DNA from: Flavobacteriales bacterium ALC-1
GTDB lineage: Bacteria > Bacteroidota > Bacteroidia > Flavobacteriales > Flavobacteriaceae
Direction of reading: 5' to 3'
Length of the DNA: 64,000 bases
Assembly (NCBI GenBank): GCA_000171875.1
Contig: ABHI01000001.1
Span: 1,127,001 to 1,191,000, forward strand
The notes under the pieces were generated by a model that ran no database searches, was not told the origin of the DNA, and worked only from the letters and a program-made list of their open reading frames with translations. Positions 18,357 to 33,517 of the stretch are shown here, in pieces. Made by a program: the position numbers and the translations under genes. The number at the start of each line of letters is the position of its first letter. Position 1 is the first letter of the stretch.

Positions 18357-20153
18357 ATGAAGAATATTCGCAATTTTTGCATCATTGCACATATAGATCA
18401 CGGAAAAAGCACACTTGCGGATCGCTTATTAGATTATACAGGCTCTGTTACCGCTCGCGAAAAGCAAGACCAGCTTTTGGATAGTATGGACTTAGAACGT
18501 GAGCGTGGTATTACCATAAAGTCGCATGCGATACAAATGGAATATACTCTTGACGGACAAGAATATGTTCTTAATTTAATTGATACTCCTGGTCATGTGG
18601 ATTTTTCTTATGAGGTATCTCGCTCTATTGCAGCCTGTGAAGGAGCTTTATTAATTGTTGATGCCGCACAGAGTATACAAGCACAAACTATTTCCAATTT
18701 GTATTTGGCTCTTGAGAATGATTTAGAAATTATTCCTGTTCTCAATAAAGTAGATTTACCAAGTGCAAACCCAGAAGAGGTAACAGACGATATTGTTGAT
18801 TTATTAGGTTGTGATCCTGAAGAAGTGATTCATGCTAGTGGAAAAACAGGCTTTGGGGTCGATAATATTTTAAAAGCAATTATTGAACGAATTCCTGCTC
18901 CAGAGGGTAATGTTGACGAGCCACTTCAAGCCTTAATTTTTGATTCAGTCTATAATACTTTTAGAGGAATTGAAACTTATTTTAGGGTCTTTAATGGAGA
19001 AATTAAAAAGGGGCAGAAAATTAAATTTGTCGCAACAGATAAAGAATACTTTGCAGACGAAGTCGGTACTTTAAAATTAAATCAAGTTCCAAAACAAAGT
19101 GTTAAAGCTGGTGATGTTGGCTATTTAATTACAGGAATAAAAACCGCAAAAGAAGTAAAAGTAGGTGATACTATTACCGATTTTGCTAACCCTACGACTA
19201 ATATTATTGAAGGGTTTGAGGATGTAAAACCTATGGTTTTTGCAGGTATTTATCCTGTGGATACAGAAGATTATGAAGAGTTGAGAAACTCTATGGAAAA
19301 ACTACAATTAAATGATGCCTCTCTCGTATTTGCGCCAGAAAGTTCTGCGGCTTTAGGTTTTGGTTTCCGTTGTGGTTTTCTTGGAATGTTACATATGGAA
19401 ATTATTCAAGAGCGCTTAGAACGTGAGTTTGATATGACAGTTATTACCACTGTACCCAATGTATCTTATCACGCTTATACAAATAAAGAACCTGATGTTG
19501 CTTTTGAAGTGAACAATCCTAGTGATTTACCAGAACCAACAACTGTAAATCGTGTTGAAGAGCCTTATATAAAAGCTACTATAATTACGAAGTCTGATTT
19601 TGTGGGTAATGTGATGAGCTTATGTATAGAGAAACGTGGTATGATTATTAACCAAACGTATTTAACCACTGAGCGTGTAGAGTTAATTTTTGAAATGCCT
19701 TTAGCTGAAATTGTATTCGATTTTTATGATCGCCTAAAAACAGTTTCTAAGGGTTATGCCTCTTTTGATTATTCTCCAATTGGTATGAAGGTATCTAAAT
19801 TAGTGCGATTAGATGTTTTATTAAATGCTCAACCTGTAGATGCACTTTCTGCTTTAATTCATGCAGATAACGCACAGCATATTGGTAAAAAAATGTGCGA
19901 AAAGCTAAAAGAATTAATCCCAAGACAACAGTTTGATATTCCTATTCAAGCTGCAATTGGTGCTAAAATTATTTCACGTGAAACCGTCAAAGCACTGCGT
20001 AAAGATGTAACTGCTAAATGTTATGGTGGTGATATTTCACGTAAACGTAAACTTTTAGAAAAGCAGAAGAAAGGTAAAAAGCGTATGCGCCAGGTAGGTA
20101 ATGTAGAAATACCTCAGCAGGCTTTTATGGCTGTATTAAAATTGAACGATTAA
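18357..20153 (+). CDS. lepA: Elongation factor 4 (LepA)
   Basis: A 598-residue translational GTPase that acts on stalled or back-translocating ribosomes. The G-motifs are [19 protein letters not shown] (G1), RERGITIKS (G2), [11 protein letters not shown] (G3) and NKVDLP (G4). The LepA-specific C-terminal domain follows, with [19 protein letters not shown] and [19 protein letters not shown]. Length is standard, and a strong intrinsic terminator follows. Promoter -7 box at 18316-18323. Confidence 0.98.
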
Positions 20154-20160
20154 CTAAGAA

Positions 20161-20187
20161 CCGAAGCTTTTAACTTCGGTTTTTTTT
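20161..20187 (+). terminator. Rho-independent terminator of lepA
   Basis: CCGAAG (20161-20166) and CTTCGG (20174-20179) enclose a short loop and are followed by eight T. The T-run is also part of the promoter-like motif of the next gene. Confidence 0.85.
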
Positions 20188-20195
20188 GTACTTTA
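20180..20195 (+). promoter_or_regulatory. Promoter-like motif of the propeller-LytTR regulator
   Basis: TTTTTTTTGTACTTTA, identical to 25475-25490 before the second regulator. TACTTTA acts as the probable -7 box and ends 5 bp before the ATG, implying a leaderless transcript. The shorter core TTTTGTACTTTA also occurs before the endonuclease V gene. Confidence 0.45.
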
Positions 20196-20200
20196 ATTTA

Positions 20201-22864
20201 ATGAAAAAGTCTTGGCAAATACAGCACAATATATTTCTAGTTGTTCTACTTATTATATTACCGTTCTATTCATTTGCTCAGATTGTTCAAAAAGATTATC
20301 ATTTTAAATCAATTACTACTAAAGATGGATTGTCAAACAATGTGGTTTTTGATATTCTTCAAGATAATGACGGTTTTATATGGATGGCAACCAACAATGG
20401 TTTAAATCGCTATGACGGATACTCTATAAAGACCTTTTTTCATTCCTATCAGGACAGTACTTCGATTTCTTCAAATGAGGTTAGAGCAATTATCAAAGAC
20501 GAACAAGGACACCTTTGGATAGGTACAAAAAATGGGCTAAATCGTTATAACAAAGAATTACAAAGTTTCGAGACACCAATAAACCTTAGCGATTTTTATT
20601 TTTTAAATCAGAACATTAGCTCTATGGTGCTTGGTGAATCAGGAAAAGTATGGTTTTCTACAGCCAATACTATTGGTTTTTTTGACCCTAAAACTTTCGA
20701 GGTTGGTTTAGCCTACACTAAAGAAGAGAATGCTATAAATATCGTATTGGCCAATGAAAAAGTGTGGATTAGCAATTTGCAAGGAGATATCATTTCTTAT
20801 GATAACAATACAAAAAAAAGAGTTACCGAAGCAAAGGCAATGAGCAATAATGCTATAGGTTTTGGCTACTATTCAAAACGATTATGGTTACCTAGTGATT
20901 TTAAAACCGCAATAGACACATCAGTTTTTAGGCGTTTTCCAAGATTACCAAACAATATTTTATCAAGACGCTTGCTCGAAATAGACGCCCAAAAATCTTT
21001 AATAAGTACAAACAATGGCTTGTTTGAATATGATTACTGTACAAAAACAGTGTCTAAAATCCACTTAGGCAAATCCACGTTAATCAATCAGATTCGAAGT
21101 TTATACAAAGATGATTTTGGTGGCATTTGGGTTGGAACATTAGCAGGAGTTCTTCATTATGATCCTTACAGAAAGGTGTTTAAGCATGATGATATTGTTG
21201 ATGAATTTGAAGATATAGCTATGGGTCTTCATACAGATAAAGAAGGTATTTATACCAATGCCTTAGGTAAGGGTATTTACTTTAAGCCTGATAATTCAAA
21301 AAAGTTTAAAGAAATAACCTTACCTAAAACATTTCCACAACAGGGCATATTTATATGGGATTTTGAAACGGTACCTGAAAGCAACTTTCCGCTTTGGATG
21401 TCAACAAATAAGGGGTTAATATGCTTAAACCCAAAAACTTTAGATTTTAAGCAGATAGACATTCCTTTTAAAGGAAAAGATGGTAATATATCGTTTTGCC
21501 TACTTGACACTAACCAAGATTTTCTTTGGGTTTCATCACATAGAGCAATTCATAAAGTCAGAAAAAAAGACGGAATATTGGTCATCTCTTTCCCATTGGA
21601 TGATGATATAAAGTACCCTGGAATTCAGAAAATAATTGACATAGGTGATTATATTTTTATTGCCACAGAAAGCAGAGGTCTATTTTCGTTTCATATTAAT
21701 TCACTTAAGATTTCTAAAGTAAATTTAAAAGATAATAAACAAGAATTGGAGACGTCTATTTGGGACTTATTCGTTTCTGGAAGCACCTTATGGATCGGTA
21801 CTAATAAAGGGTTATATAGCCTCTCTTTAGATGCTATGGAAATAGAACCTGTTTTAGAAGACAACCAAGTTGTTTTTAGTATCATTCAAGACGATTCGGG
21901 TCTACTATGGGCGGGCACCGATAAAGGTATTAAAGCCTATAACACAGAAAATAAATCCGTTAGATATTATACGACTGCCAACGGATTAAAAAACACAGAG
22001 TTTAATAGGAAATCTGTGATAAAAACCGATGATGGCAGACTGTGGTTTGGTGGTGTCAATGGCATTACTTCCTTTAACCCAAATACAATTAGAAAAGATA
22101 ATCCCAATACACCTTATGTGCATATCAAAAATTTACAAGTGGTAACTTCTGATTCTACATTTAATCTGCCTTATGCTCAAAAAAAAGTGGTACTTCCTTG
22201 GAAGCATAATACTATAGAAATAGATTATGTGGGTCTTAATTATACAAATACGTCACAAAATAAGTACAGGTATAAAATGGAAGGTCATGACCCAAACTGG
22301 GTAAGTGCTGACAAGCCAAGTAAGGCGCGATATGTAAGATTGCCAGTTGGTACATATACGTTTAAAGTTTTAGCGTCTAATAATGATGGGAAATGGAATA
22401 AAAATGGTGATAGTATTGAAATAGAAATTGCTCCACCAATTTGGCGTACTAAAGCTGCCTATGCTGTTTATGTCTTAGTCTTATATAGCCTAATTATTTT
22501 ATTTAAGCGCTTAAAAAAATATCGCAACCGAATTAAAGAAGTAGAACAAGAAAAAGAAATCATTGCTAAAAAAGTTGAAGAAAAATTTATAGTACTTAAT
22601 AACAAAACAAAAGTCTACCTTAAAGATCTTAAGTACATAAAAGCTGCTGGCAACTATCTAGAATTTTGCACAGAAAATAAGACCATCACAGACCGAAATA
22701 AGCTTAAGATAGTGGAGGAAAAATTACCACCCAATTTTATAAGAACACATCGCTCTTATATCGTTAATAAAAACCATATTGTTTCGGCCAATAGCATTTC
22801 GGTAACTATAAGACCGGATGTTGAAACACCATTGTCTAGATCCTTTAAAGGAAGCCTAAACTAG
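20201..22864 (+). CDS. Membrane-anchored propeller-sensor LytTR regulator (no kinase)
   Basis: About 887 residues from the ATG at 20201 (a TTG-started form would begin inside the terminator). It has a signal peptide ending near YSFAQ and a large two-component-regulator propeller (Reg_prop blades such as GLSNNVVFDILQDNDGFIW and GGIWVGTLAGVLHYDP). A Y_Y_Y domain (RYKMEGHDPNWVSADK, GTYTFKVLASN) precedes one membrane helix (YAVYVLVLYSLIILF). A basic coiled linker leads to a C-terminal LytTR DNA-binding domain (VYLKDLKYIKAAGNYLEF). There is no HisKA, HATPase or receiver domain, so the protein appears to pass a periplasmic signal straight to DNA. The predicted target is the secreted propeller gene downstream. 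Confidence 0.9.
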   Translation: MKKSWQIQHNIFLVVLLIILPFYSFAQIVQKDYHFKSITTKDGLSNNVVFDILQDNDGFIWMATNNGLNRYDGYSIKTFFHSYQDSTSISSNEVRAIIKDEQGHLWIGTKNGLNRYNKELQSFETPINLSDFYFLNQNISSMVLGESGKVWFSTANTIGFFDPKTFEVGLAYTKEENAINIVLANEKVWISNLQGDIISYDNNTKKRVTEAKAMSNNAIGFGYYSKRLWLPSDFKTAIDTSVFRRFPRLPNNILSRRLLEIDAQKSLISTNNGLFEYDYCTKTVSKIHLGKSTLINQIRSLYKDDFGGIWVGTLAGVLHYDPYRKVFKHDDIVDEFEDIAMGLHTDKEGIYTNALGKGIYFKPDNSKKFKEITLPKTFPQQGIFIWDFETVPESNFPLWMSTNKGLICLNPKTLDFKQIDIPFKGKDGNISFCLLDTNQDFLWVSSHRAIHKVRKKDGILVISFPLDDDIKYPGIQKIIDIGDYIFIATESRGLFSFHINSLKISKVNLKDNKQELETSIWDLFVSGSTLWIGTNKGLYSLSLDAMEIEPVLEDNQVVFSIIQDDSGLLWAGTDKGIKAYNTENKSVRYYTTANGLKNTEFNRKSVIKTDDGRLWFGGVNGITSFNPNTIRKDNPNTPYVHIKNLQVVTSDSTFNLPYAQKKVVLPWKHNTIEIDYVGLNYTNTSQNKYRYKMEGHDPNWVSADKPSKARYVRLPVGTYTFKVLASNNDGKWNKNGDSIEIEIAPPIWRTKAAYAVYVLVLYSLIILFKRLKKYRNRIKEVEQEKEIIAKKVEEKFIVLNNKTKVYLKDLKYIKAAGNYLEFCTENKTITDRNKLKIVEEKLPPNFIRTHRSYIVNKNHIVSANSISVTIRPDVETPLSRSFKGSLN

Positions 22865-22872
22865 AAGATGTT

Positions 22873-22941
22873 TACCATCCATTTTGTTTTTTCTACCATT
22901 CGTCACATTTTCTAATTCTGAATGAAAATGAAGTCTAATTT
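22873..22941 (+). promoter_or_regulatory. Candidate LytTR operator and promoter, copy A
   Basis: TACCATCCA (22873) and TACCATTCG (22894) form a direct repeat with 21-bp period. The block 22884-22911 matches 27047-27074 at 23 of 28 positions without gaps. A -7-like TAATTT lies at 22936-22941, exactly 25 bp after the block, as in copy B. No -33 box is seen; the operator occupies that position, which suggests activator dependence. Confidence 0.6.
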
Positions 22942-22967
22942 TAATATAAGCTATTAATTATATTACT

Positions 22968-25442
22968 ATGAAAACAAAATTATTCGTACTCACTCTTTTG
23001 CTATTTTCTTTAATTTCTTTCTCTCAAACCAATGGATGGTATCAATATCATAAACCAAATCAAATAACCAATATGGATGTTGACACATCTGGGAACATCC
23101 ACTTAGCTACTGATGGCGGTTATATAATGTATAACACTGCCACTAATATGGTTGAAGATTACGCTAATCTTACATCCCAAAGCCAACCAATTGGTTGGTG
23201 TACTTCAGTTAAAGTAAATCCAATGAATAGCAGTGTTGCTTTGGGTTTTCCATCTGGTCAAGGTATAGCAATCTATGACGGCACAGACTATATTATGTAC
23301 AATTCTGATAATTCTATTATTGGTGATTTCTCAAGTCCTCAACTGCATTATACCGATAGCGGATTACTTTATATTTTTGATAAAGCAGACACTAAATACC
23401 AAACTTTTGAAAGCGGAGTGTTTAGTGCTGTACAAACTTTAACCTTTAGACCTCAAGCTATTATTGAAAACGAAGCTGGCACTATTGCTTATTTTGCAGG
23501 GCAGACTCCTAGTGGTTTTGCTGATGGCTTCTATGAACTTGATAAATCTACAGATACATTTACACATTATACCACTTCAAATTCTGGTATTGTTCATAAT
23601 GGGGTAAATTGTTTTTTTAGAGATACAAACGATTTACTTTATATAGGGGGTCATAGAGGTGTTAATACTTTAGATGCTATGGGTAATTGGGCAACTTATC
23701 AAGAGCCTTTGCCTATAAATCCGTCACTGTTTTATAGTGTTTATAGCATCGATAAGTTTAGTGATGGTACGTTTTTAGTTAATAATTCTAACCCTAACTC
23801 TTCTGAAGAACGAGGGTTTTCAACAGTGGATTTTACAACCAATACGTGGACGCATTATGATAGTTCGGTGTATTGTAATGCTTCTGACCAAGTACAAAAT
23901 ATGGTTCTTGCAGATGATATGGTTTTCACACACTTTAGAAAATTTGGCACTCCGTCAGAAGATAACAAGCTTTGGTCTTTTGATACATCAACTAACACTT
24001 GTCAAGAAAAAGACGTTAATTTTTTAGGTATAGACGACCTCGGCCTATATGGTATTACCAGTGTTAGTATAAGTGAAGACACAAACAATTCAAATGAACT
24101 GGATATTAACTATATAAAGAATGGTGATTTGGTATTAAAAGAGATAACCATACCTAAGGACTTTACAGGAAACTTCCCAATCGCAACAAATATAACGTCA
24201 TCAACCTCATCATTAAGTAATGTCTATTCTGTTGCAACAGCAAACAATCAGTATAAGATTGTTGGAGATAAAGATGGTTTGAGAATTATTGATGAAAGCG
24301 GTATGGCTACACACATCCCTCATAATATTCCGGGTTTTGAACCTTACGAAGTACAAAAAGTATCATGTTCTAATCAAGGTAATGAAATAGTAAATCTTAT
24401 TTTTAAAGGCTTTGATGCAACATTTAACACGATAGCATATAAAACGCAATGCAATATTGTCACCAACAACTGTAGTGCCTTAGAGCAGGTATTCGTAGCG
24501 AATAGAGACCTTAGTCAAGATGTGAAAATTAATGCAATAATCGAGGATGGAAATATAAAAGCTGCGGGTGTAAAAATAGATTTAAACGACGAGATCCTTA
24601 TTGAAGAAGAGCTTTGGGACGAGGTTCTAAATGATTCACCACAAGATGAACTTGAAGAGAACATTAATCAGCTTGCTAGCTTAGGATTAGTTGATGCCTT
24701 TTGGATTGATGGTGATGGTGAATCAAAGATATGTTTTCAAATCCCTGGTGACCCACTTGTTTATTGCATTGAAAAAGATTCTGTCACAAACGAAACATAT
24801 ATTGAAAACTATGAAGTAGATTTTGACGATTCTTACGACGGTGGCGAGATTTACTTGATTCAGGCAGATGTCTACAGGGAAATGAATGAGGAGCCTGAAG
24901 AGGATGATGGGTGTCTTGATTTTGTTGAAGCATTTTATGTAGCTTTTAGTCCAGATCAATTTAAACATGTAATCGCTCATAGGAAAAAGTATGGTCAGCC
25001 AAACTCTGGTAGAATACAAAATTCACAAAACAATATAAATTTAGAAGTATTGCCCGGAACCGTTTTAGAAAATTTACCTAAAAATTATTCTATACTAAAT
25101 TCATCTTTTTACTTTTATAGCGAAACATATTTCGCTGCCGTAATCTCTACAAATTATGGTTTACTTATTAATACCGCAATAGACTACTCTTCTATTGCTT
25201 TAGATGTTGATGAAGTTTCGACTGCTATTGATTTTAAATTATATCCCAACCCTGCAAATGACATCGTGTCTATTACAGATGAAAATATTGTTTCAGTTGA
25301 AGTTTATGATCTTAATGGTAGAAACATCCTTTCTACCAAATCAAATACGTTTTCCATTAAGCATTTATCAAATGGTGTTTATATTTTAAAAATTCTAGGC
25401 GAAGACAATTATGAGGTTACTAAAAAATTAATTAAGAACTAA
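22968..25442 (+). CDS. Secreted propeller protein with T9SS sorting domain (copy 1)
   Basis: An 824-residue exported protein: signal peptide (ends SLISFSQ), an N-terminal region of propeller-like repeats (about 25-330; NGWYQYHKPNQITNMDVDTS), and a long less defined middle. The C-terminal type A T9SS sorting domain (about 752-824) contains LYPNPANDIVSI, VEVYDLNGRNIL and HLSNGVYILKI. It is likely exported by the type IX system and attached to the cell surface or released. It is paralogous to the product at 27135-29546, and both genes have the same upstream operator. Ligand and function unknown; a surface sensor partner or target of the upstream LytTR regulator is inferred. Confidence 0.85.
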   Translation: MKTKLFVLTLLLFSLISFSQTNGWYQYHKPNQITNMDVDTSGNIHLATDGGYIMYNTATNMVEDYANLTSQSQPIGWCTSVKVNPMNSSVALGFPSGQGIAIYDGTDYIMYNSDNSIIGDFSSPQLHYTDSGLLYIFDKADTKYQTFESGVFSAVQTLTFRPQAIIENEAGTIAYFAGQTPSGFADGFYELDKSTDTFTHYTTSNSGIVHNGVNCFFRDTNDLLYIGGHRGVNTLDAMGNWATYQEPLPINPSLFYSVYSIDKFSDGTFLVNNSNPNSSEERGFSTVDFTTNTWTHYDSSVYCNASDQVQNMVLADDMVFTHFRKFGTPSEDNKLWSFDTSTNTCQEKDVNFLGIDDLGLYGITSVSISEDTNNSNELDINYIKNGDLVLKEITIPKDFTGNFPIATNITSSTSSLSNVYSVATANNQYKIVGDKDGLRIIDESGMATHIPHNIPGFEPYEVQKVSCSNQGNEIVNLIFKGFDATFNTIAYKTQCNIVTNNCSALEQVFVANRDLSQDVKINAIIEDGNIKAAGVKIDLNDEILIEEELWDEVLNDSPQDELEENINQLASLGLVDAFWIDGDGESKICFQIPGDPLVYCIEKDSVTNETYIENYEVDFDDSYDGGEIYLIQADVYREMNEEPEEDDGCLDFVEAFYVAFSPDQFKHVIAHRKKYGQPNSGRIQNSQNNINLEVLPGTVLENLPKNYSILNSSFYFYSETYFAAVISTNYGLLINTAIDYSSIALDVDEVSTAIDFKLYPNPANDIVSITDENIVSVEVYDLNGRNILSTKSNTFSIKHLSNGVYILKILGEDNYEVTKKLIKN

Positions 25443-25463
25443 AATAGATAAAAACAAAAATTC

Positions 25464-25490
25464 TTGACTTCTTCTTTTTTTTGTACTTTA
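25464..25490 (+). promoter_or_regulatory. Promoter of the TPR-LytTR regulator
   Basis: TTG (25464-25466), 17 bp, then TACTTTA (25484-25490) ending 4 bp before the ATG. This fits the Bacteroidota -33/-7 layout and implies a leaderless message. The 16 bp from 25475 to 25490 are identical to 20180-20195. Confidence 0.5.
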
Positions 25491-25494
25491 CAGT

Positions 25495-27027
25495 ATGAAA
25501 AATAGTGGCTATATATTTTTCGTTTGTTTAATTACTTCCTTATTCGGTTTTTCTCAAACTGAACACCCAGAAATTGATTCCTTTATTCAAAAAGCCATTA
25601 AAAGTGGCACCAAAAACCAAGACAGTGCTTTACATTTTTCTAAAAAAGCCTATGACATTGCTAAAAAAACAAAAGATACTTTTCTCATTGGGTCAGCAGG
25701 TTACTATTATTCATTCTATCTTATATCTGTAGATAAAATAACTGAAGCGCAATCACTATTACGATTCAACTTTGACAATCAAGACAAGTTAACAGATGCT
25801 CTTAAGGGAAACACGCATTATAATCAGGCGGCAATCTTCGATATAGGTGAGCAGTTTGATAAAGCCCTAGAGTATTATTTATATAGTGTAGATTTCTACA
25901 AAACAGCAAAGAATAAAAAAGGACTTGCTAGGTCTTACCTGCAAATTGGTGTGATTTATGAAAAATTAAATAAAATAGAGCTAGCAGACTACTTTTTTGA
26001 TGCTTCACTAAAGGTTAGCGGCAATACTAATAAAAAACATGAGGTCGATTCTAGTTCTAGAGGAATGACATCTGCTGAAAAAACAGCTGAATCATTAAAA
26101 ATGCTCAAAGAGCTTGAAAAAGGCGGGAACGATAAGTTGAAATCTATTGTACTTTATAATCTTGGCCAATCATTAATGGGCGAAAAACGATACTTAGAAG
26201 CCATAAACTATTTTAAGCGCTCTTTAGAAATAAAAAAGAATCTTAGTTTTTCAACTAATGTAGATAAAACCTATTTTTTACTTGGGCAATGTTATTATAA
26301 CATTAACAATGCAGAAAACGCAATTCTAAACTTAAATCAAGCTAAAAAAGAAAATAAAAAAAGAACTCAATTAGCACAAATAGAACACTTTTTATCAAAA
26401 TCATATGAGTCTAAACAAGATTATAAAAAAGCCTTACTGCATTCAAAAAATCATAAGATAATTAGTGATTCTATAGCTGAATTTAAACAAAATGAGCGAA
26501 TAGCGGAAATTACAGCAAAGTTTGAAAACCAAAAACAAGCCAATAAAATTATAAGGCTTGAACAAGAAAATCAGAAAAATGAATTAGAAATTTATAAGCA
26601 AGAAAATTTAAGGTGGCGCTGGTCGGTTTTTGCTCTTGTGGCTTCTTTAATTGCTGTTTGGCTTGGTCGTCGTTTTATACAATCTCAAGAACGTGTAAAA
26701 GAGGTGGAATTAGAAAAAAAACATATTGCTAAAAAGGTTGAGGAAATTGCCGTAATACTTAATAATAAATCTAAAGTGTATCTAAAAGAATTAAAATATA
26801 TTAAGTCTGATGGTAATTATTTAGAATTTGTAACTGATGAAAAGCGTATTATAGATCGAAATAAAATAAAAGTAATTTTAGAACAATTACCTCCGAATTT
26901 TGTCAAAGTACATCGTTCGTACATTATTAATAAAAACTATGTTTCCGCTGTAAATAGATCTAATGTTATTCTACAAACGAATATAGATATTCCTCTTTCC
27001 CGAACATTTAAAAAAAATCTGGCTTAA
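25495..27027 (+). CDS. Membrane-anchored TPR-sensor LytTR regulator (no kinase)
   Basis: A 510-residue protein: signal peptide (ends LFGFSQ) and TPR repeats (about 25-320, such as NQAAIFDIGEQFDKALEYYL and YNLGQSLMGEKRYLEAINYF). A coiled coil (about 330-370) precedes one membrane helix (WSVFALVASLIAVWLGRRFI). The linker and LytTR domain are closely similar to those of the propeller regulator (both read AKKVEE, LNNK(T/S)KVYLK(D/E)LKYIK and RTHRSY/KVHRSY). No kinase or receiver domain is present. It lies directly upstream of the second secreted propeller operon, its probable target. Confidence 0.9.
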   Translation: MKNSGYIFFVCLITSLFGFSQTEHPEIDSFIQKAIKSGTKNQDSALHFSKKAYDIAKKTKDTFLIGSAGYYYSFYLISVDKITEAQSLLRFNFDNQDKLTDALKGNTHYNQAAIFDIGEQFDKALEYYLYSVDFYKTAKNKKGLARSYLQIGVIYEKLNKIELADYFFDASLKVSGNTNKKHEVDSSSRGMTSAEKTAESLKMLKELEKGGNDKLKSIVLYNLGQSLMGEKRYLEAINYFKRSLEIKKNLSFSTNVDKTYFLLGQCYYNINNAENAILNLNQAKKENKKRTQLAQIEHFLSKSYESKQDYKKALLHSKNHKIISDSIAEFKQNERIAEITAKFENQKQANKIIRLEQENQKNELEIYKQENLRWRWSVFALVASLIAVWLGRRFIQSQERVKEVELEKKHIAKKVEEIAVILNNKSKVYLKELKYIKSDGNYLEFVTDEKRIIDRNKIKVILEQLPPNFVKVHRSYIINKNYVSAVNRSNVILQTNIDIPLSRTFKKNLA

Positions 27028-27046
27028 CCATATCAAGTTAAACATG

Positions 27047-27104
27047 TTGTTTTTTGTGTCAGTCATCACATTTTAGGCTAATGCATTCATTTAGAGTGTA
27101 ATTT
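27047..27104 (+). promoter_or_regulatory. Candidate LytTR operator and promoter, copy B
   Basis: The block 27047-27074 matches copy A at 23 of 28 positions and includes CATCACATTTT. A -7-like TAATTT lies at 27099-27104, again 25 bp downstream. GCTATTAATT is shared in the 5' leader (27112-27121 and 22950-22959). The upstream half of the direct repeat is poor here; an AACCAT lies 31 bp upstream instead. Confidence 0.55.
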
Positions 27105-27134
27105 CATTGAGGCTATTAATTCAAATTCTTTTCA

Positions 27135-29546
27135 ATGAAAACAAAATTACTATTCCTTCTTGCGTTTTTATGTTCAACAACCGTTTTTACACAATCTAAT
27201 GATGGTTGGAGTCAGTATGCGAAACCACTATATGTCAATCAAATGGTTAAAGATGCAAGTGGGAATTATCACTATGCTACAAATCTTGGTTACCAAAAAT
27301 TAGATGGCAATTTTAATACTGTTGATTTTATAAACCTAACATCTCATGACACTCCATTGGGCAACTGTTTTTCAGTAGCAGTAAATCCGAGCAACGAAAA
27401 TCAAATTGCTTTGGCTGAAAATAATCGCTTGTTTGTTTATACAAATGGAATAGAAACTAATGCAATAGAGGTTGTTTCTGCAACACCTTTTACTGGACCC
27501 AGTTTGTATTACAACGGTAATAATGCTTTATACATTTTTGATAAATATGCTAACATAGAAGGCTATTCCGTTTTTGAAAACGGAATATTAAATGATGTAG
27601 TTACAACAGGAATAAGACCACAAGATATTATTGAAAACAATGGAGGAACCAAGATTTTCATTGCAGGAACAAATAATGGCTTGTGGGAATACACCAAAGC
27701 AACAGATACTTGGGTAAACTATACAATGACAAACTCAAACTTAAACAGCAATTTTATAAATGATTTATATGTAGATGATAACGATGATTTATATGCGGGC
27801 ACTTATCAAGGGATAAATAAAATTGAACCAGATGGAACCATTACAGTGTGTGAACCTTCGACCTTTTATCCGGTTTTTGAATTAGATATACATCCAACTA
27901 CTGGAGACATTTTAGCAAGAACTTCAGATCCAAATAGTTCGAACACTTTTGGTTTTTGCATTGTAGATTTTGATACGTGTTCATGGGTGAATTATACTGA
28001 CACAAATTCAAGTTTAAATGTAAACATGTTTGAAACGGCTCAGTTTGCAGTAGCTCCAGAAGATGGTAAAATTGTTGCTAGTGAAGCCATACTTTCTGCA
28101 GAGAACACATTTGTTTTTGATCCAAATAACCCTCAAGAGCCATTATTGGGCAAACCAATAGAGTTTATTGTGAATGGTGTTCCGGTTAGGGTAGATGTTA
28201 ATTATACTGTAGATTTAGACGTTAGAAAAAAGACAGATGGAACTTTAGATATTGGATTTACAAATGGTAATGGATTTGATAAATTTCATCATTTCCCAAT
28301 AAACCCTTTAACATTTAATGGTGCTTTTCCTGCTGCTACACCGGTTAATCTTCCTATTGGAAAGCCAGCATATTCAATAATTAATGACAATGATTATTTT
28401 ATTATCGAAAATAACGAAGGGTGGGTCTTTGTAGATGATAATGATACAACAACCGAATTCAACCATAACATTCCAAATTTTTTAGCTATAGTCACTAAAA
28501 AGGCTGCTAAATTTAATTCTGATGATGGTACTGTTAATTTGATTCATAAGGGTTTTGATGCTTCTTTTAATTATAGAGTTTATAAAACTACATGTAATAC
28601 TATAACTGGCACTTGTGGTGCTTCTGAAGAGATTTTCACCAATGATAGAGACTTAACGGAAAATATTGTGTTTGGGGCTTCAGAGGATAAAACCACTGGC
28701 AATGTAGCCGTGGTTGCAGTAAAAACAAATAGTTCTGGAAACATTACTAGAACAGCCATTCATGCAGAGCCAAATATGCCCGCTGTTGATAATTGGGATA
28801 GAATACATAATGTATTTCCAGAGTTCGACCCAACTATTTTTAGTTTCGTTTTAGACGATTTAACTTCAATGTTTGTGCCCGATCTTGATACATATAAAAT
28901 AATTCATGAAGACAATGATAATAATAGCATAGCTGAAGAAGATTTTGATATAGGAGATTATTCACCTGGTGATGTGGTTTTAGTGGCTTCACCAGATCAT
29001 ACAATTGAAATCACAGATGATCAAGCGTCAGATATTGCTGTGGCTATAGTAATGCTTGTTTCTTATAGGGGGCTAGGCCCAAATTTAGTCTATGAACTTA
29101 GACAGGTTGATCCTTCAATAAATGAAGGGTCAAGAAAAAATCTCACAACTGAACTTACTGATGCAAAGTTTTATGATCTTCCCACAGACACATTTGTAAA
29201 AGAATTAAACCTTGTTCAATACAATAATACTGAAGCAATGATTGTGCTTTTAACCAATTATGGAATTTTACTTAAAACTGGTATTGATATTTCCAATTTG
29301 TCATTAAACACTCAAGATTATACTATTGATAATGAGGTGAAACTATATCCAAATCCAACAAATGACCTAGTGTCCATATCAGATAAAAATATAATTTCTG
29401 TTGAAGTTTTTGATATCAACGGTAAAAGTGTTCTAGAAACCAAATCAAGTACGCTCTCTGTTAGGCATTTAGCTAATGGTATATACATTATAAAAGCAAA
29501 AACACAAGACGGTTCTGAGGCTGTTAGAAAACTAATAAAAAACTAA
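27135..29546 (+). CDS. Secreted propeller protein with T9SS sorting domain (copy 2)
   Basis: An 803-residue exported protein paralogous to the one at 22968-25442. It has a signal peptide (ends TTVFTQ), N-terminal propeller repeats (DGWSQYAKPLYVNQMVKDAS, LWEYTKATDTWVNYTMTNSN), and a shared middle segment (HKGFDASFNYRVYKTTCNTI). The C-terminal sorting domain contains LYPNPTNDLVSIS, VEVFDINGKSVL and HLANGIYIIKAK. It is the first gene of a probable operon with two smaller secreted proteins (23 and 49 bp gaps). Likely surface-exposed; molecular role unknown. Confidence 0.85.
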   Translation: MKTKLLFLLAFLCSTTVFTQSNDGWSQYAKPLYVNQMVKDASGNYHYATNLGYQKLDGNFNTVDFINLTSHDTPLGNCFSVAVNPSNENQIALAENNRLFVYTNGIETNAIEVVSATPFTGPSLYYNGNNALYIFDKYANIEGYSVFENGILNDVVTTGIRPQDIIENNGGTKIFIAGTNNGLWEYTKATDTWVNYTMTNSNLNSNFINDLYVDDNDDLYAGTYQGINKIEPDGTITVCEPSTFYPVFELDIHPTTGDILARTSDPNSSNTFGFCIVDFDTCSWVNYTDTNSSLNVNMFETAQFAVAPEDGKIVASEAILSAENTFVFDPNNPQEPLLGKPIEFIVNGVPVRVDVNYTVDLDVRKKTDGTLDIGFTNGNGFDKFHHFPINPLTFNGAFPAATPVNLPIGKPAYSIINDNDYFIIENNEGWVFVDDNDTTTEFNHNIPNFLAIVTKKAAKFNSDDGTVNLIHKGFDASFNYRVYKTTCNTITGTCGASEEIFTNDRDLTENIVFGASEDKTTGNVAVVAVKTNSSGNITRTAIHAEPNMPAVDNWDRIHNVFPEFDPTIFSFVLDDLTSMFVPDLDTYKIIHEDNDNNSIAEEDFDIGDYSPGDVVLVASPDHTIEITDDQASDIAVAIVMLVSYRGLGPNLVYELRQVDPSINEGSRKNLTTELTDAKFYDLPTDTFVKELNLVQYNNTEAMIVLLTNYGILLKTGIDISNLSLNTQDYTIDNEVKLYPNPTNDLVSISDKNIISVEVFDINGKSVLETKSSTLSVRHLANGIYIIKAKTQDGSEAVRKLIKN

Positions 29547-29569
29547 GTACAACCAAAAACACAATACAT

Positions 29570-30316
29570 ATGAAAACAAAATTCTCTTATGCATTAAGTG
29601 CAGTATTTCTGTGCCTTTTCATGCAATTAAATGCCCAATCTCAATTTTTTAATGATTTTAATTTCAATGAAAAAGAGATTAAAGCCGAAGATTTCACCAA
29701 CCTAGAAATAGATTATATTCTAGACGATTTTAAATCATTCTTAGAAAACAAACCTGAAGTAAGCTTAAAAACTTTTGAAGAACAAAACCCAGAGGACATT
29801 ATATTCGCTATGCAAATGCTAGCTGTTGGTGCTGGTTTGGGCCTGGGTGAAGACGAAACACTTTGGTGTTTACATGCGGCATATTACTACAAATTAAGGC
29901 AATATAAACGCTCAGCACTTTATGCATCATTAGGTCTGGTTTACGATGGATTGAGTATAGGAGACAGAACACAAAGTCTGATTGATTTACAACTTAAACT
30001 TTTAATGTTTCACAGCATTTCAAAGCTTAATGAAATTCGTCTAATTTATGGGCTTCTTGGTGGTTATGGTTTTGGAAATGAGAAATACAATAATTTTACT
30101 ACAGACATTACAAGGGTTACACTTGCTGTGATAATGGGTGTTCAATTAATGTTATCAACTCGTTGGTCTATTGCTTTGCAAACCAACTTGATAACACATA
30201 GAGCTTTAACATATAAACCAGAAAGTGGTGAAGAATACAAAAATGATTTCACCAACTTTTTAATAGCGAAGAATAACCTACTCACCTTATCCTTGTTTTT
30301 TAATATCGGAAAATAG
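29570..30316 (+). CDS. Secreted protein, probable outer-membrane beta-barrel
   Basis: A 248-residue product with signal peptide (ends MQLNAQS). An acidic N-terminal segment (FNEKEIKAEDFTNLEIDYIL) is followed by alternating hydrophobic strands (LIYGLLGGYGFGNE, LAVIMGVQLMLSTRWSIALQ) ending in LLTLSLFFNIGK with a terminal aromatic-rich strand. This suggests a small outer-membrane barrel. I do not recognise a family. It follows the T9SS propeller gene by 23 bp and precedes another barrel-like gene, so the three are probably co-transcribed under the operator at 27047. Confidence 0.6.
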   Translation: MKTKFSYALSAVFLCLFMQLNAQSQFFNDFNFNEKEIKAEDFTNLEIDYILDDFKSFLENKPEVSLKTFEEQNPEDIIFAMQMLAVGAGLGLGEDETLWCLHAAYYYKLRQYKRSALYASLGLVYDGLSIGDRTQSLIDLQLKLLMFHSISKLNEIRLIYGLLGGYGFGNEKYNNFTTDITRVTLAVIMGVQLMLSTRWSIALQTNLITHRALTYKPESGEEYKNDFTNFLIAKNNLLTLSLFFNIGK

Positions 30317-30365
30317 TACGCTATAGAATTTAAACCAAACATATAATAAATTAAACTTAAGTATT

Positions 30366-31082
30366 ATGAAAACAACTATTCTTAGACTAACTATTCTCTT
30401 GTTTTGTATAGGGGGAATCACAGCAATTAACGCTCAGGGGCTTTATAACTTAGCCACTTTGGATGAAGAAGATGGTAATTCACCTCTTAAATGGTCGGCT
30501 GGAATTGATTTTGGATATGATGATCTTGTTGATAGATTTGGTGACGGTGTTGAGTGGGCGGATAACACTATTGGAGGAAGTATTGGAATTGGATGGGGTG
30601 ATGTTGAGGGTAACAGTGAAACATCATTCTGCTTAGGTGTTGAATATCTCTATAAAATTACTGGTAATGACCAAAATCCAAATGGAGCTGGTTATTTGGG
30701 TGGTTTTGGAAATTATCACAAACTAAAAACAGATAATTTTGATGAGAGTATATTTAGGTTGGGTGCTAAATATAGCTATTTTGACCGCATTACCGCCTTT
30801 AATGAAGTACAACTTATTTATGGGGCTAATGTTTATTATGAAACAGGGTCTCTAGGTTTCTCTGGGGCTAAAGAGGACCTTTCTGGTTATGGGGCTGGTA
30901 TTTATACAGGAGCGAATTTTAGGGTTTGTGATAAAGTTTCGCTTGGGGTGGAGGTTCCAGTAGTTTCTTATTTAAGTAGAACTTTTGATTCTGGCGGTAA
31001 TGAGTTTAGTCAAGATCAAATTTGGGCTGGCGTCAATAAAGATAATAGTGCTTCCGCTACTTTAAGGTGGATTATAGATTAG
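30366..31082 (+). CDS. Secreted protein, probable outer-membrane beta-barrel
   Basis: A 238-residue product with signal peptide (ends TAINAQG). Amphipathic strands rich in Gly, Tyr and Phe follow (GSIGIGWGDVEGNSETSF, YGAGIYTGANFRVCDKVSLG), ending in ASATLRWIID. The pattern is that of a small outer-membrane barrel. No family is recognised. It is the last gene of the probable operon starting at 27135 and is followed by a strong intrinsic terminator. A structural or ligand-uptake role with the secreted propeller protein is inference. Confidence 0.6.
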   Translation: MKTTILRLTILLFCIGGITAINAQGLYNLATLDEEDGNSPLKWSAGIDFGYDDLVDRFGDGVEWADNTIGGSIGIGWGDVEGNSETSFCLGVEYLYKITGNDQNPNGAGYLGGFGNYHKLKTDNFDESIFRLGAKYSYFDRITAFNEVQLIYGANVYYETGSLGFSGAKEDLSGYGAGIYTGANFRVCDKVSLGVEVPVVSYLSRTFDSGGNEFSQDQIWAGVNKDNSASATLRWIID

Positions 31083-31168
31083 TGCCAACTATGAGTTGTA
31101 ATATAGCCTAACTAAAAAGATCAAAAGATATAGTTTTAAAATTGATTATTTTAATTGGTCTTTAGTTA

Positions 31169-31200
31169 AGAGGTTCTAATATAAGTTAGAACCTCTTTTT
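31169..31200 (+). terminator. Rho-independent terminator of the propeller operon
   Basis: AGAGGTTCTAA (31169-31179) pairs perfectly with TTAGAACCTCT (31186-31196) and is followed by T. It separates this operon from the converging antiporter gene. Confidence 0.85.
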
Positions 31201-33046
31201 ATTGGTAATCATTGATTGCTTTTTCAATATCGAAAGGCTTTCCTAAGTAAACGAGCTTTGTGTTTTCTGCGATATCATCTATCTCAGTGTTATAGGATGA
31301 TATAATAACAAATTCGTCATTATTGTTTCTTAAAAACAATGGAATAATGTCTTTCTCGTTATTTGCAATTTCTATCACTTTTTGATAGTGATCAATATCA
31401 TTAATATCAACTTCTTGGATAGAAGGGAACTTTTTAGCCACTTCACTTAGTGAATTAAAATCATCTGTATGAGAAAATAAACCTTCATGTGGATTGTTGT
31501 TTTCGTCTAGCATTTCTTCTGTTGAAACTAACCTAAACGAGCCATTCTCACCAAATTGCTTACTAAACTTATTAATGGCATACTTATTAATGTCCGAATT
31601 TCCTGTTAAAGCCATTAAGTACCCAACATCATTAAGTTCAATATTATCCATCAATTTATCAGAATATATATTAGCATCAAAAGCTTCTAAGCCTAATTCT
31701 TTTGCTTGTTTAATATTATTTTGATTACTGTCGATTAAAACCACATGTCTTCCGTTTGTTTCAAGATAATGCCCTAATAATCTTGAGACTTTTGAGGCTC
31801 CAACTATTAAAATGCCATTAGAATTATTCAAAAACACTCCTACCATTTTTGCAAATAGTCTTGCGGTTGTGGCGTTTAAAAGCACTGTTCCTAATACTAT
31901 CATAAAAACGAGAGGCGTAATATAATCCGCACCTACAACATCTTCAGCCATAAGTTTACTTCCAAATAAAGAAGCTATACCAGCCGCAACTATTCCTCTT
32001 GGACCAACCCAACTTATAAAAAGCTTTTCGTTTAGTGTCAAAGATGATTTATAGGTGCTCAAAAACACGCCAATGGGTCTAATTACAAAAACAACAACTA
32101 AAAATAAGACTGCAGCCTTCCAATTGGCAAGGAGCATTAGGTTTTCCATATCAATATTTGCAGATAGTAAAATAAATAATACAGATATTAACAGAACACT
32201 TAAAGACTCTTTAAAATATAATAGCTCTTTTAGGTAAGGCGCGTTTTTGTTTCCTAAAACCATTCCCATAATTACTACAGAGAGTAAACCAGATTCGTGA
32301 GCAAAATTATCTGAAAGCACAAAGACGCCTAGAACTGCTGCCAAAGCAAAAACATTCATAAGATAATGAGGAATCCATTTTTTATTAATTAAAAAATCTA
32401 AAGCATGAGCAAACGTAAATCCAAATGTTGCACCAAAGAGAATAATTTTACCAAACTCAATTAGTGCCGTCTTCGTAAAGCCTCCGCCTCCACCAACAAA
32501 AATAAACTCAAAGACTAGTACTGCCACCAAGGCTCCTATTGGGTCAATTAAAATCCCCTCCCATTTTAGTACAGCAGAAACGTCTTTTTTTAGAGGAATG
32601 TTTCTTAAAATTGGTGTGATTACTGTTGGTCCTGTAACTATAATTAGGCCAGAAAATAAAAAGGACAACTCCCAATCTAAGCCAAACAAATAGTAAACAG
32701 CAACTGCTGCTCCAAAAAAAGTAACCATAGAACCCAGTGTAATTAATTTAGTTATGACGGGGCCTACATTTTTTATTTCTCCCATTTTAAGGGTTAAACC
32801 ACCTTCAAACAGAATTATACTAATCGCAAGTGAGACAAAATAAAATAAGCCATCACCAGGAAATAGTCCTTTTTCGCCATTCCAAATAGGTTCTATCCAT
32901 TTTACACCATCATTTAAATATTCAGCCGCAATTGGACCAACTAATAAGCCAATAAGAATTAATGGCAAAATCGCTGGTATTTTAAGTTTCCAAGCTACCC
33001 ATTGCGCTAAAATACCTAATATTATAATTCCTGCTAACTCTAACAT
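31199..33046 (-). CDS. Cation:proton antiporter with TrkA-N domain (CPA family)
   Basis: A 615-residue membrane transporter. Residues 1 to about 400 hold about 12 helices of the Na+/H+ exchanger fold, with FEGGLTLKMGEIKN, TGPTVITPILRNIP, WEGILIDPIGALVAV and SWVGPRGIVAAGIASLFG. Residues about 410-530 form a TrkA-N Rossmann domain (ILIVGASKVSRLLGHYLETN, VVLIDSNQNNIKQAKELGLE). It probably exports Na+ or K+ in exchange for protons at the inner membrane, gated by nucleotide binding. It is a single gene, converging with the propeller operon, with an AT-rich promoter region shared with the divergent Usp/STAS remnant. Confidence 0.92.
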   Translation of the reverse strand: MLELAGIIILGILAQWVAWKLKIPAILPLILIGLLVGPIAAEYLNDGVKWIEPIWNGEKGLFPGDGLFYFVSLAISIILFEGGLTLKMGEIKNVGPVITKLITLGSMVTFFGAAVAVYYLFGLDWELSFLFSGLIIVTGPTVITPILRNIPLKKDVSAVLKWEGILIDPIGALVAVLVFEFIFVGGGGGFTKTALIEFGKIILFGATFGFTFAHALDFLINKKWIPHYLMNVFALAAVLGVFVLSDNFAHESGLLSVVIMGMVLGNKNAPYLKELLYFKESLSVLLISVLFILLSANIDMENLMLLANWKAAVLFLVVVFVIRPIGVFLSTYKSSLTLNEKLFISWVGPRGIVAAGIASLFGSKLMAEDVVGADYITPLVFMIVLGTVLLNATTARLFAKMVGVFLNNSNGILIVGASKVSRLLGHYLETNGRHVVLIDSNQNNIKQAKELGLEAFDANIYSDKLMDNIELNDVGYLMALTGNSDINKYAINKFSKQFGENGSFRLVSTEEMLDENNNPHEGLFSHTDDFNSLSEVAKKFPSIQEVDINDIDHYQKVIEIANNEKDIIPLFLRNNNDEFVIISSYNTEIDDIAENTKLVYLGKPFDIEKAINDYQ

Positions 33047-33163: not shown

Positions 33164-33517
33164 TTGCCTCAAGGACCTTTTAAAACAATTGGAATTGGTG
33201 TTATATTTTCCCCCTATCTTAAGGCTAATATTTTCGAGACCTCAAGATTAGCTTTAGCATTTAAATCTAAACTCATTCTTTTTCATGTGCTAATTAATAA
33301 AAATATTATGTTGTTTGTAAGAAATGTTTTCAAGCCTAATGTGATTATATATAAAGAACTAGGTTCAGATGGTAATTATTACAAACAGAAAGATAAACTA
33401 GACAATATTCCCGAAGACCAAAATATCGTTTTGGATTTCTCATTTCGCGAATTTGTCGACCACAAAGTCATGGATAACCTTAACGTTTATAGAATGTTAT
33501 GCGTCATTAACGAATAA
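33164..33517 (+). pseudogene. Decayed gene: Usp-like N-terminus joined to a STAS-like C-terminus
   Basis: A 117-codon frame starting at TTG. Residues 6-40 (IGVIFSPYLKANIFETSRLA, then FKSKLILFHV) look like the first beta-alpha unit of a universal stress protein. Residues about 75-110 (KDKLDNIPEDQNIVLDFS, FVDHKVMDNL) look like the STAS core found at the C-terminus of Bacteroidota SulP transporters. The middle of both families is missing. The simplest reading is a deletion that fused a usp gene to the end of a sulP gene. An intact sulP lies just downstream, which supports a former usp-sulP array. It may still be translated. Confidence 0.45.

Follow-up and report, generated by a model that had tools for sequence, protein, structure and literature searches.

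Membrane-anchored LytTR regulators with unrelated sensors and a candidate operator before their neighbouring surface genes in a slot behind lepA in Flavobacteriaceae

Why should two closely related membrane regulators with unrelated sensors each stand directly before a secreted surface protein, and does this pairing reflect regulation? The question arises in a stretch of 64,000 nucleotides from Flavobacteriales bacterium ALC-1 (GenBank assembly GCA_000171875.1, contig ABHI01000001.1, positions 1,127,001 to 1,191,000, forward strand; hereafter the window, in whose coordinates positions are given), in which an initial annotation had described two paralogous cassettes, each combining a membrane-bound LytTR regulator (regA, regB) with a protein carrying a sorting tail of the type IX secretion system (T9SS; secA, secB). 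The genes proved intact, with LytTR and T9SS-tail domains above their cut-offs, so that this description stands. Our data further indicated that regA and regB each probably control the neighbouring surface gene directly via a predicted 41-bp operator, and that in Flavobacteriaceae the slot after lepA holds one of several signalling formats beside exchangeable surface genes. The initial annotation had overlooked the candidate operator and the lepA slot, along with the two-component and hybrid forms that other genomes carry there. The principal features are as follows (TPR, tetratricopeptide repeat; L and G handles denote loci and genomes compared).

20201 to 22864, + strand: regA, with a signal segment, periplasmic Reg_prop propellers and Y_Y_Y domain, one transmembrane segment (aa 750-768), a short linker and a C-terminal LytTR domain
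22610 to 22858, + strand: LytTR DNA-binding domain of regA (PF04397, 58.6 bits)
22871 to 22911, + strand: candidate operator 1, ACCATCCAT, 12 bp and ACCATTCGT (22874-22882 and 22895-22903), then CACATTTT
22936 to 22941, + strand: TAATTT, a -7-like promoter box, 24 nt past operator 1
22968 to 25442, + strand: secA, a family-I protein with a T9SS sorting tail (aa 758-822)
25495 to 27027, + strand: regB, with a signal-like start, periplasmic TPR sensor, one transmembrane segment (aa 377-395), a linker and a C-terminal LytTR domain
26773 to 27021, + strand: LytTR DNA-binding domain of regB (PF04397, 55.5 bits)
27034 to 27074, + strand: candidate operator 2, with GTTAAACATGTTGTTTTTTGTGTCAGTCATCACATTTT core, the top weight-matrix site in the window (56.7 bits)
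27099 to 27104, + strand: TAATTT box, 24 nt past operator 2 (read by eye; missed by the stricter script pattern)
27135 to 29546, + strand: secB, a family-I double-propeller-like protein with a T9SS tail (aa 737-801)
29570 to 30316, + strand: o5, an exported protein and possible outer-membrane barrel (OMP_b-brl E 0.013, under cut-off)
30366 to 31082, + strand: o6, a distant paralogue of o5 (24% over 153 aa, E 1e-9)

Counted from the ATG at 20201, regA comprises 887 aa, and regB comprises 510 aa. Reg_prop, Y_Y_Y and LytTR in regA and TPRs and LytTR in regB were detected above curated cut-offs (22.6 bits for PF04397). Hydrophobic peaks lie ahead of the linkers (750-768 in regA, 377-395 in regB), with a further N-terminal peak in regA; the N-terminal segment of regB appears signal-like by eye and is below the threshold used for such peaks. 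Alignment of the two proteins was confined to a stretch of 141 aa at 53% identity (E 5e-41) that spans membrane segment, linker and LytTR domain, consistent with the earlier view that the DNA-binding ends and linkers are close paralogues joined to unrelated sensors, a propeller in regA and TPRs in regB. Neither protein gave a HisKA, HATPase or Response_reg match at E 0.1. The regA sensor matched that of BT4663 in the PDB (E 4e-84), and a PDB search with the linker/LytTR end of regB returned no match. The genome (3.83 Mb, 8 contigs) has 23 LytTR matches; 21 fall in frames of 230-263 aa, and the only two in long frames (913 and 519 aa) are those of regA and regB. The two genes also share TTTTTTGTACTTT, which ends a few nucleotides before the ATG (20170-20200 and 25470-25494; 8330-8362 in L160), suggesting that their transcripts may have very short leaders or be leaderless.

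A conserved 41-bp site begins 6 nt past each regulator stop and contains, in the regA copy, a 9-12-9 direct repeat. The shared block was spotted by reading the gap between the regulator and the next gene in eight cases, and these eight sites constitute the 41-bp weight matrix, on which they scored 15.2-53.8 bits when left out one at a time; sites outside model building scored 20.3 (L075), 44.8 (L218), 46.8 (L219) and 41.2 bits (L220). Each of the 12 slot regulators of the one-component LytTR type that were inspected (the 8 used for model building and 4 others) has the site behind its gene, with a start anywhere from 4 nt ahead of the gene's end to 8 nt past it. When repeat distances of 20, 21 and 22 were compared, the best pair was at 21 in all 11 sites examined, with 6-11 of 11 positions matching, and a mean of 29% of positions differed in the operator versus 58% in the following 40 bp. 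A scan of the window returned only 22871 (46.7 bits) and 27034 (56.7 bits), with 2.7 bits as the next best score, and the maximum in 4 Mb of random sequence was 6.1 bits. A whole-genome pattern search allowing up to 3 mismatches gave exactly 2 matches, both being these sites (reversed-pattern control, 0); the pattern was derived from the two sites themselves, and the informative part is the absence of others.

The occurrence of the site was linked to the regulator class. It was absent before 21 of 21 surface genes located beside other regulators or none (best score, -6.3 bits), 20 of them in the slot and one elsewhere (L091), homologues of secA and secB included. Across the window and the loci from L040 on (L001-L039 left out), the top score at loci without a known one-component LytTR gene was 8.2 bits; 24 loci, namely slot loci without a one-component LytTR regulator plus the second contig of G336, scored -0.5 bits or less, and an extra stretch (L240) scored -8.6 bits. 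Where the regulator was a one-component LytTR protein, the site preceded three unrelated cargo types. One-component LytTR loci outside the slot carry related sites before their own operons (28.1 bits in L085, 20.1 bits in L084). A Mantel comparison of sensor type with operator gave r 0.11 (p 0.12), and the operator therefore does not clearly follow the sensor. Separately, the TPR-LytTR genes of L089 and L090 are followed by a small LuxR-HTH-like protein (HTH, helix-turn-helix), with an apparently similar HTH frame in the gap of L083; several GTGACA-type repeats, identified by eye, lie in the intervening DNA.

The geometry behind the slot sites is constant: counted from the site end, a TAnnTT box follows after 24-25 nt and an ATGAA after 55-62 nt; 4 of the 12 boxes have C as the next base, which is outside the script pattern, and were read by eye. 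Bacteroidetes promoters differ from the sigma-70 type, and a sigma-70 promoter scan, which showed no clear excess (60 found vs 53.1 in shuffles, standard deviation 8.3), was not used. We propose that each regulator would act as a single-protein transmembrane switch, in which the periplasmic sensor (the propeller of regA or the TPRs of regB) would, on a presumed signal, shift a dimeric LytTR domain, held on the inner side of the cytoplasmic membrane, into another state. This domain would bind the 41-bp site right behind its own gene and control, most likely activate, transcription of the neighbouring surface gene, activation being suggested by the position of the site; the predicted targets are secA for regA and secB, probably together with o5-o6, for regB. 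No operator was found directly before regA or regB, since the two sites in the window, which by pattern are also the two in the genome, both lie behind the regulators; no direct autoregulation is therefore indicated. Operator 1 could reach regB through read-through. A hairpin scan from regA through o6 found none except a weak one inside o5, and none in the 52-bp gap between secA and regB, so that regB could be read from the secA promoter; a relay built on such reading is a conjecture.

Two other readings of the site were considered. The repeat might be a general promoter element of the surface genes at this locus, with the regulators acting elsewhere and their adjacency a by-product of a recombination slot, as the site lies near the position expected for a -33 element, with the TAnnTT box after it, and the slot is a hot spot that gathers unrelated genes. 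This is quite improbable, because the site is missing before all 21 surface genes examined that have another regulator type or none, precedes unrelated cargo when the regulator is a one-component LytTR protein, and has counterparts before operons containing such regulators elsewhere. The regulator might instead repress the neighbouring surface gene, the site being a silencing operator relieved by the signal, and a location just upstream of or overlapping the -33 region would be compatible with this. We regard repression as rather unlikely, however, given that PMC6193735 describes, for LytTR systems, activation through repeats located some 10 bp ahead of the -35 element.

Direct activation of the adjacent gene also has to be separated from the further proposal that each sensor detects the secreted protein paired with it, or the export state of that protein, and signals this. 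The T9SS genes at the slot fall into two unrelated families: family I (secA/secB) and family II (L166, L173, L183 and L185, with 39-58% identity among them and no body match to family I; also L145), the family-II label of G145 reflecting 49-54% to L183, L173 and L185 and 39% to L166. In a hand-compiled table of occupied slots, from which empty slots, opposite-strand kinase/regulator/TonB-like occupants (e.g., G317 and G304) and non-lepA TPR kinases (G078 and G015) were left out, propeller-LytTR regulators preceded family I (1) or II (4), TPR-LytTR regulators preceded family I (5), family II (1) or a kelch/Fn3 lipoprotein (1), and systems with a DISM kinase were accompanied by family I (5), family II (2) or barrel-like genes only (2), with one cut by a contig end. 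A dedicated partnership would fit the strict adjacency of regulator and surface gene, the resemblance of secB to the double-propeller sensors of BT4663 and BT4673, which places related folds on both envelope sides, and the leaning of propeller regulators towards family II (4/5) and TPR regulators towards family I (5/7). Nevertheless, both cross-combinations exist, the lipoprotein is a third partner of TPR-LytTR regulators, and family I is likewise found next to LuxR/DISM systems (5 loci) and, at 2 loci, with no regulator at all, making such a partnership unlikely. With propeller-LytTR regulators before two cargo types and TPR-LytTR regulators before three, cargo has been exchanged independently of the sensor. 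Of the self-contained signalling module suggested by the initial annotation, a regulatory module therefore remains likely, based on pair co-occurrence and the regulator-type-specific site, while the matching of sensor to secreted protein is unsupported because the cargo types are swapped.

Several observations weigh against the proposed direct control. Four TPR-type sites have a degenerate direct repeat (6-7/11 matches, partly in a T run), and non-slot relatives L086 and L087 reach only about 5 bits, a level also attained by random sequence. In L082, where a T9SS gene follows the regulator, a 21-bp repeat was found by eye and the weight-matrix hit lies elsewhere. The first ATG behind the operator of L166 opens only 15 codons, and the likely start of its T9SS gene lies 220 nt past the site. 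LytTR-domain distance correlated with the operator (Mantel r 0.68) and also with the spacer behind it (r 0.76); covariation of LytTR domain and operator was therefore rejected as proof of contact, since the spacer covaries equally. Common descent links many of the 12 sites, which belong to a single genus, and limits their phylogenetic independence. Finally, export of secA and secB by the T9SS is predicted from the tail domain together with the presence in the genome of SprA (2767.7 bits), the sole part of the machinery looked for.

The tails of secA and secB are of the Por_Secre_tail/TIGR04183 type A kind (TIGR04183, 48.5 and 46.6 bits vs a cut-off of 23), and the proteins share 32% identity over their full length; a search of the same genome with secA recovered secB as the sole full-length relative, along with eight further matches restricted to the tail. 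The initial annotation had called both secreted propeller proteins, of which the tails and the full-length paralogy are well founded, and the propeller fold is supported for secB by Foldseek matches to BT4663 (E 8.8e-16), BT4673 (1.6e-15) and PorZ (1.3e-13), at low TM-scores (0.2-0.3) and from a model with a mean predicted local distance difference test score (pLDDT) of 64.7 and an alignment of 8 sequences. BT3049 was also listed (E range 1e-16 to 1e-12), followed by many eukaryotic double propellers. With moderate confidence, secB can be modelled as two propellers plus a T9SS tail. The claim of two barrel-like proteins was a weak point: o5 stays under the OMP_b-brl cut-off, as do two longer relatives at the same locus (E 9e-5 and 1e-3), and o6 has no family match. 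The o5 structure model was too poor (pLDDT 37.8), and o5 as a proven barrel was dropped; o5 and o6 may be outer-membrane barrels, and o5 homologues occur at the same slot in other genomes. A near-identical DNA start (ATGAAAACAAAATT, peptide MKTKL) was seen on unrelated surface genes at 22968, 27135 and 29570 and at the cargo starts of L185, L219 and L220; it is possibly a cargo-exchange junction downstream of the operator, or merely a common signal-peptide start. In the closest relative by LepA (98%), an uncultured Winogradskyella (L160, a GTDB record), the family-I secreted gene lies in two frames (L160:9971-12414; also L164), which may reflect cargo decay or an assembly error.

The six co-directional genes are bordered by lepA on the left and a convergent cation:proton antiporter gene on the right.

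18357 to 20153, + strand: lepA (elongation factor 4), left slot border (TIGR01393, 977 bits)
20156 to 20184, + strand: terminator-like hairpin after lepA (11 pairs plus T run)
31168 to 31197, + strand: terminator-like hairpin at the right border (13 pairs)
31199 to 33046, - strand: cation:proton antiporter gene (Na_H_Exchanger and TrkA_N), right slot border (PF00999, 139 bits)

Such hairpins are not in excess (3 in the region vs 5.4 expected from shuffles), and neither border hairpin is significant by itself. The left border is the more constant of the two, since glycogen genes separate the slot from the antiporter in several genera; in L155, glycogen synthase, glgC and glgB were identified before the antiporter, and the same gene lengths recur in L159, L161, L162 and many others. 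Beyond the antiporter, a 117-aa frame without a family match (33164-33517, + strand) looks like a remnant: its start resembles an approximately 300-aa gene and its remainder a second SulP-like transporter, two genes that in relatives separate the antiporter from the gene after it (L043:4242-7354).

The formats found in the slot are TPR-LytTR, propeller-LytTR, TPR-kinase plus LytTR, DISM-kinase plus LuxR, and the hybrid two-component system (HTCS). Relatives of secA are accessory, occurring in 6 of 299 family genomes (own included) and at no fewer than 9 GTDB loci, all in Flavobacteriaceae (found via two peptide patterns, which did not capture every member: L169 and L218, encountered afterwards, have the family too). 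In these nine loci the gene lies in the post-lepA interval, with intervening genes in several; for eight, the position was read on the locus itself or a G-handle twin, and for the ninth (G083) the contig carrying lepA and the regB relative ends in the start of a secreted gene and another contig begins inside such a gene, the two being left unjoined. G147, whose contig ends inside a secA-family gene, was left out. The accompanying regulators are TPR-LytTR in three, a LuxR response regulator with a 7TMR-DISM kinase in four (three of which also hold an opposite-strand kinase/LytTR pair) and none in two. Full-length LytTR-type relatives of regB in the 299 genomes were found in G083, G148 and G233 (41-42%), all behind lepA, and among its best TPR-kinase relatives four of five lie behind lepA, the fifth (G078) elsewhere. 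TPR His_kinase plus LytTR response regulator pairs with barrel-like or T9SS genes occupy the slot in G284, G205, G267 (with homologues of o5, 42%, and o6, 39%) and G198. The G045 slot (L099) contains a full hybrid two-component protein with Reg_prop, Y_Y_Y, HisKA, HATPase, receiver and AraC-type HTH domains, next to o5 and o6 homologues, the G145 slot a LuxR/DISM pair with a family-II T9SS gene, and the G070 slot o5 alone. Sixty lepA loci from the top of the LepA ranking were read (G148 and G163 excluded; four contigs run out in or shortly past lepA), and none showed a one-component LytTR regulator; besides G045, G145 and G070, seven carried an opposite-strand kinase/LytTR pair.

In the genus-level group of the window, probably that of Winogradskyella, the slot was read in 68 genomes, own included. 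One-component LytTR regulators occurred in 8 genomes (9 genes), a LuxR response regulator with a DISM kinase in 5, an opposite-strand kinase set in 2 (G317 and G304) and none of these in 53, of which at least one (G324) is unreadable because its contig ends. All nine one-component genes sit directly after lepA, and a T9SS-tailed gene directly follows each of them (split in two frames in G353; running to the contig end in G336), which gives regulator/T9SS pairs in 8 of the 8 genomes with such a regulator and bears out the co-occurrence expected from the initial annotation. A search of the 68 genomes with the regB linker/LytTR end, which had drawn attention to three of the eight, returned the same 8 genomes and no further long protein, the tenth match being a 235-aa frame. 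For DISM systems, T9SS genes follow in 2 of 4 readable cases. In part of the genus another conserved-looking gene set (approximately 370, 149, 172, 376, 236 and 350 aa) was observed in or after the slot (L177, L179, L182, L185, L189, L202, L203 and L219).

The trees indicated how sensors and outputs may have been recombined. All 21 one-component LytTR domains formed one clade (98/86), within which those from the slot, propeller- and TPR-bearing alike, grouped with L082 (99/93), in agreement with the sensor swap that the initial annotation had proposed. A later, smaller tree with more slot rows recovered the slot group at 87/88 and, with five response regulators as the outgroup, did not separate the one-component group from two of them. 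A single clade of propeller-bearing LytTRs was not rejected (approximately unbiased test, p-AU 0.495), so that one sensor swap suffices; two independent swaps were unsupported. As the LytTR domains of the TPR-kinase response regulators (L077-L081) lie far from the one-component clade, an origin of regB by simple local fusion of a slot kinase and its response regulator was rejected, although their TPR sensors are shared. On the TPR tree, one- and two-component sensors intermix, with 4 changes between kinase and LytTR output, and a single clade of the six LytTR-type TPR sensors was rejected at p-AU 0.026 (log-likelihood 50.6 lower), a value that flatters the result, the group having been named after the first tree was seen. 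Two long rows, L084 and L074, had been in that first tree, whose resolution was poor, and were dropped for the test. The one-component TPR sensor of G233 shares 57% identity with the kinase TPR of G267 and 37% with regB. The only propeller relative at E 1e-75 in the 299 family genomes besides regA itself was G102 (38%), a Reg_prop-HisKA_3 kinase with a LuxR regulator away from lepA. These patterns suggest that the post-lepA slot would serve as an exchange site in which sensor, output format and surface cargo are replaced separately and the arrangement of a signalling module next to a surface gene is kept.

How do these regulators compare with known systems? ToxR and CadC have the DNA-binding end first, whereas regA and regB follow the order sensor, membrane segment, DNA-binding end. 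Transmembrane transcription regulators have been described as one-component DNA-binding proteins with one or more membrane segments, enriched in Bacteroidota, and LytTR proteins with such segments are mentioned for Caulobacter (PMC10269533, in part). With a LytTR DNA-binding domain and one transmembrane segment per chain, regA and regB resemble this class, of which they appear to be a new variant; the terms "propeller" and "tetratricopeptide" have 0 occurrences in its main text. PMC6193735 (likewise in part) reports LytTR repeats of the 9-12-9 kind, with ACCATTCAA as one half-site, and 11-11-11 repeats (TCCGGTATTCA/ACCGGAAATCA) for Bacteroides LytTR proteins whose DNA-binding domain is preceded by membrane segments. 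Our system shares with these LytTR Regulatory Systems and the similar Bacteroides operons a LytTR output tied to a membrane protein and paired direct repeats upstream of a promoter. In those systems the regulator has a distinct membrane protein as its partner, and the repeats lie ahead of the regulator operon (autoregulation; also bacteriocin genes), whereas here sensor, membrane segment and LytTR domain form one chain and the repeats precede the surface gene. The open-licence literature, to which the search was confined and which leaves out most subscription journals, provided no operator for single-chain propeller- or TPR-LytTR proteins apart from the Bacteroides repeats of PMC6193735, and no paper on a lepA hot spot in Flavobacteriaceae was recognized among the open-access matches listed. 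PMC7586716, considered as a LytTR/TPR precedent, was unrelated in the portion available.

Like the HTCS proteins BT4663, BT4673 and BT3049, regA has Reg_prop propellers and a Y_Y_Y periplasmic sensor; unlike them, it is without kinase, receiver and AraC domains, and with LytTR directly after the membrane segment, only the sensor half of an HTCS is present. One PDB entry titles BT4673 as one-component. The slot pairs of a TPR His_kinase (PF06580) and a LytTR regulator (e.g., L077 and L080) have a homologous TPR sensor, the same position, LytTR output and adjacent barrel-like or T9SS genes in common with regB, and differ in consisting of two proteins with phosphotransfer, whose LytTR domains lie elsewhere on the tree, rather than one protein. 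A TPR kinase is also known in FimS. PorZ is a double propeller with a T9SS tail, which secB resembles in both parts; unlike PorZ, secA and secB are accessory, and neither matched the NCBIfam PorZ model (NF052228) at E 0.1.

Speculatively, and with more doubt than confidence on our part, the slot could be viewed as a regulatory socket into which five or more formats plug, each taking over the neighbouring surface gene, with the LytTR format bringing its operator and with sensor, wire and output as separate exchangeable parts. Here, two such sockets would be stacked, regA acting on secA and, by read-through of the 52-bp gap, on regB, and regB on secB-o5-o6, in a two-step relay that links one surface protein to the next. 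Interconversion of one- and two-component systems and re-use of sensors are usually inferred from scattered proteins, whereas here TPR-kinase pairs, TPR-LytTR, propeller-LytTR, a hybrid kinase and DISM-kinase pairs all occur at one chromosomal position, next to the same or exchanged surface genes and with a recognizable candidate operator for one format. Output swapping, sensor swapping and operator capture thereby become directly testable in marine bacteria, and a likely direct target and a 41-bp site can be named for single-chain propeller- and TPR-LytTR regulators.

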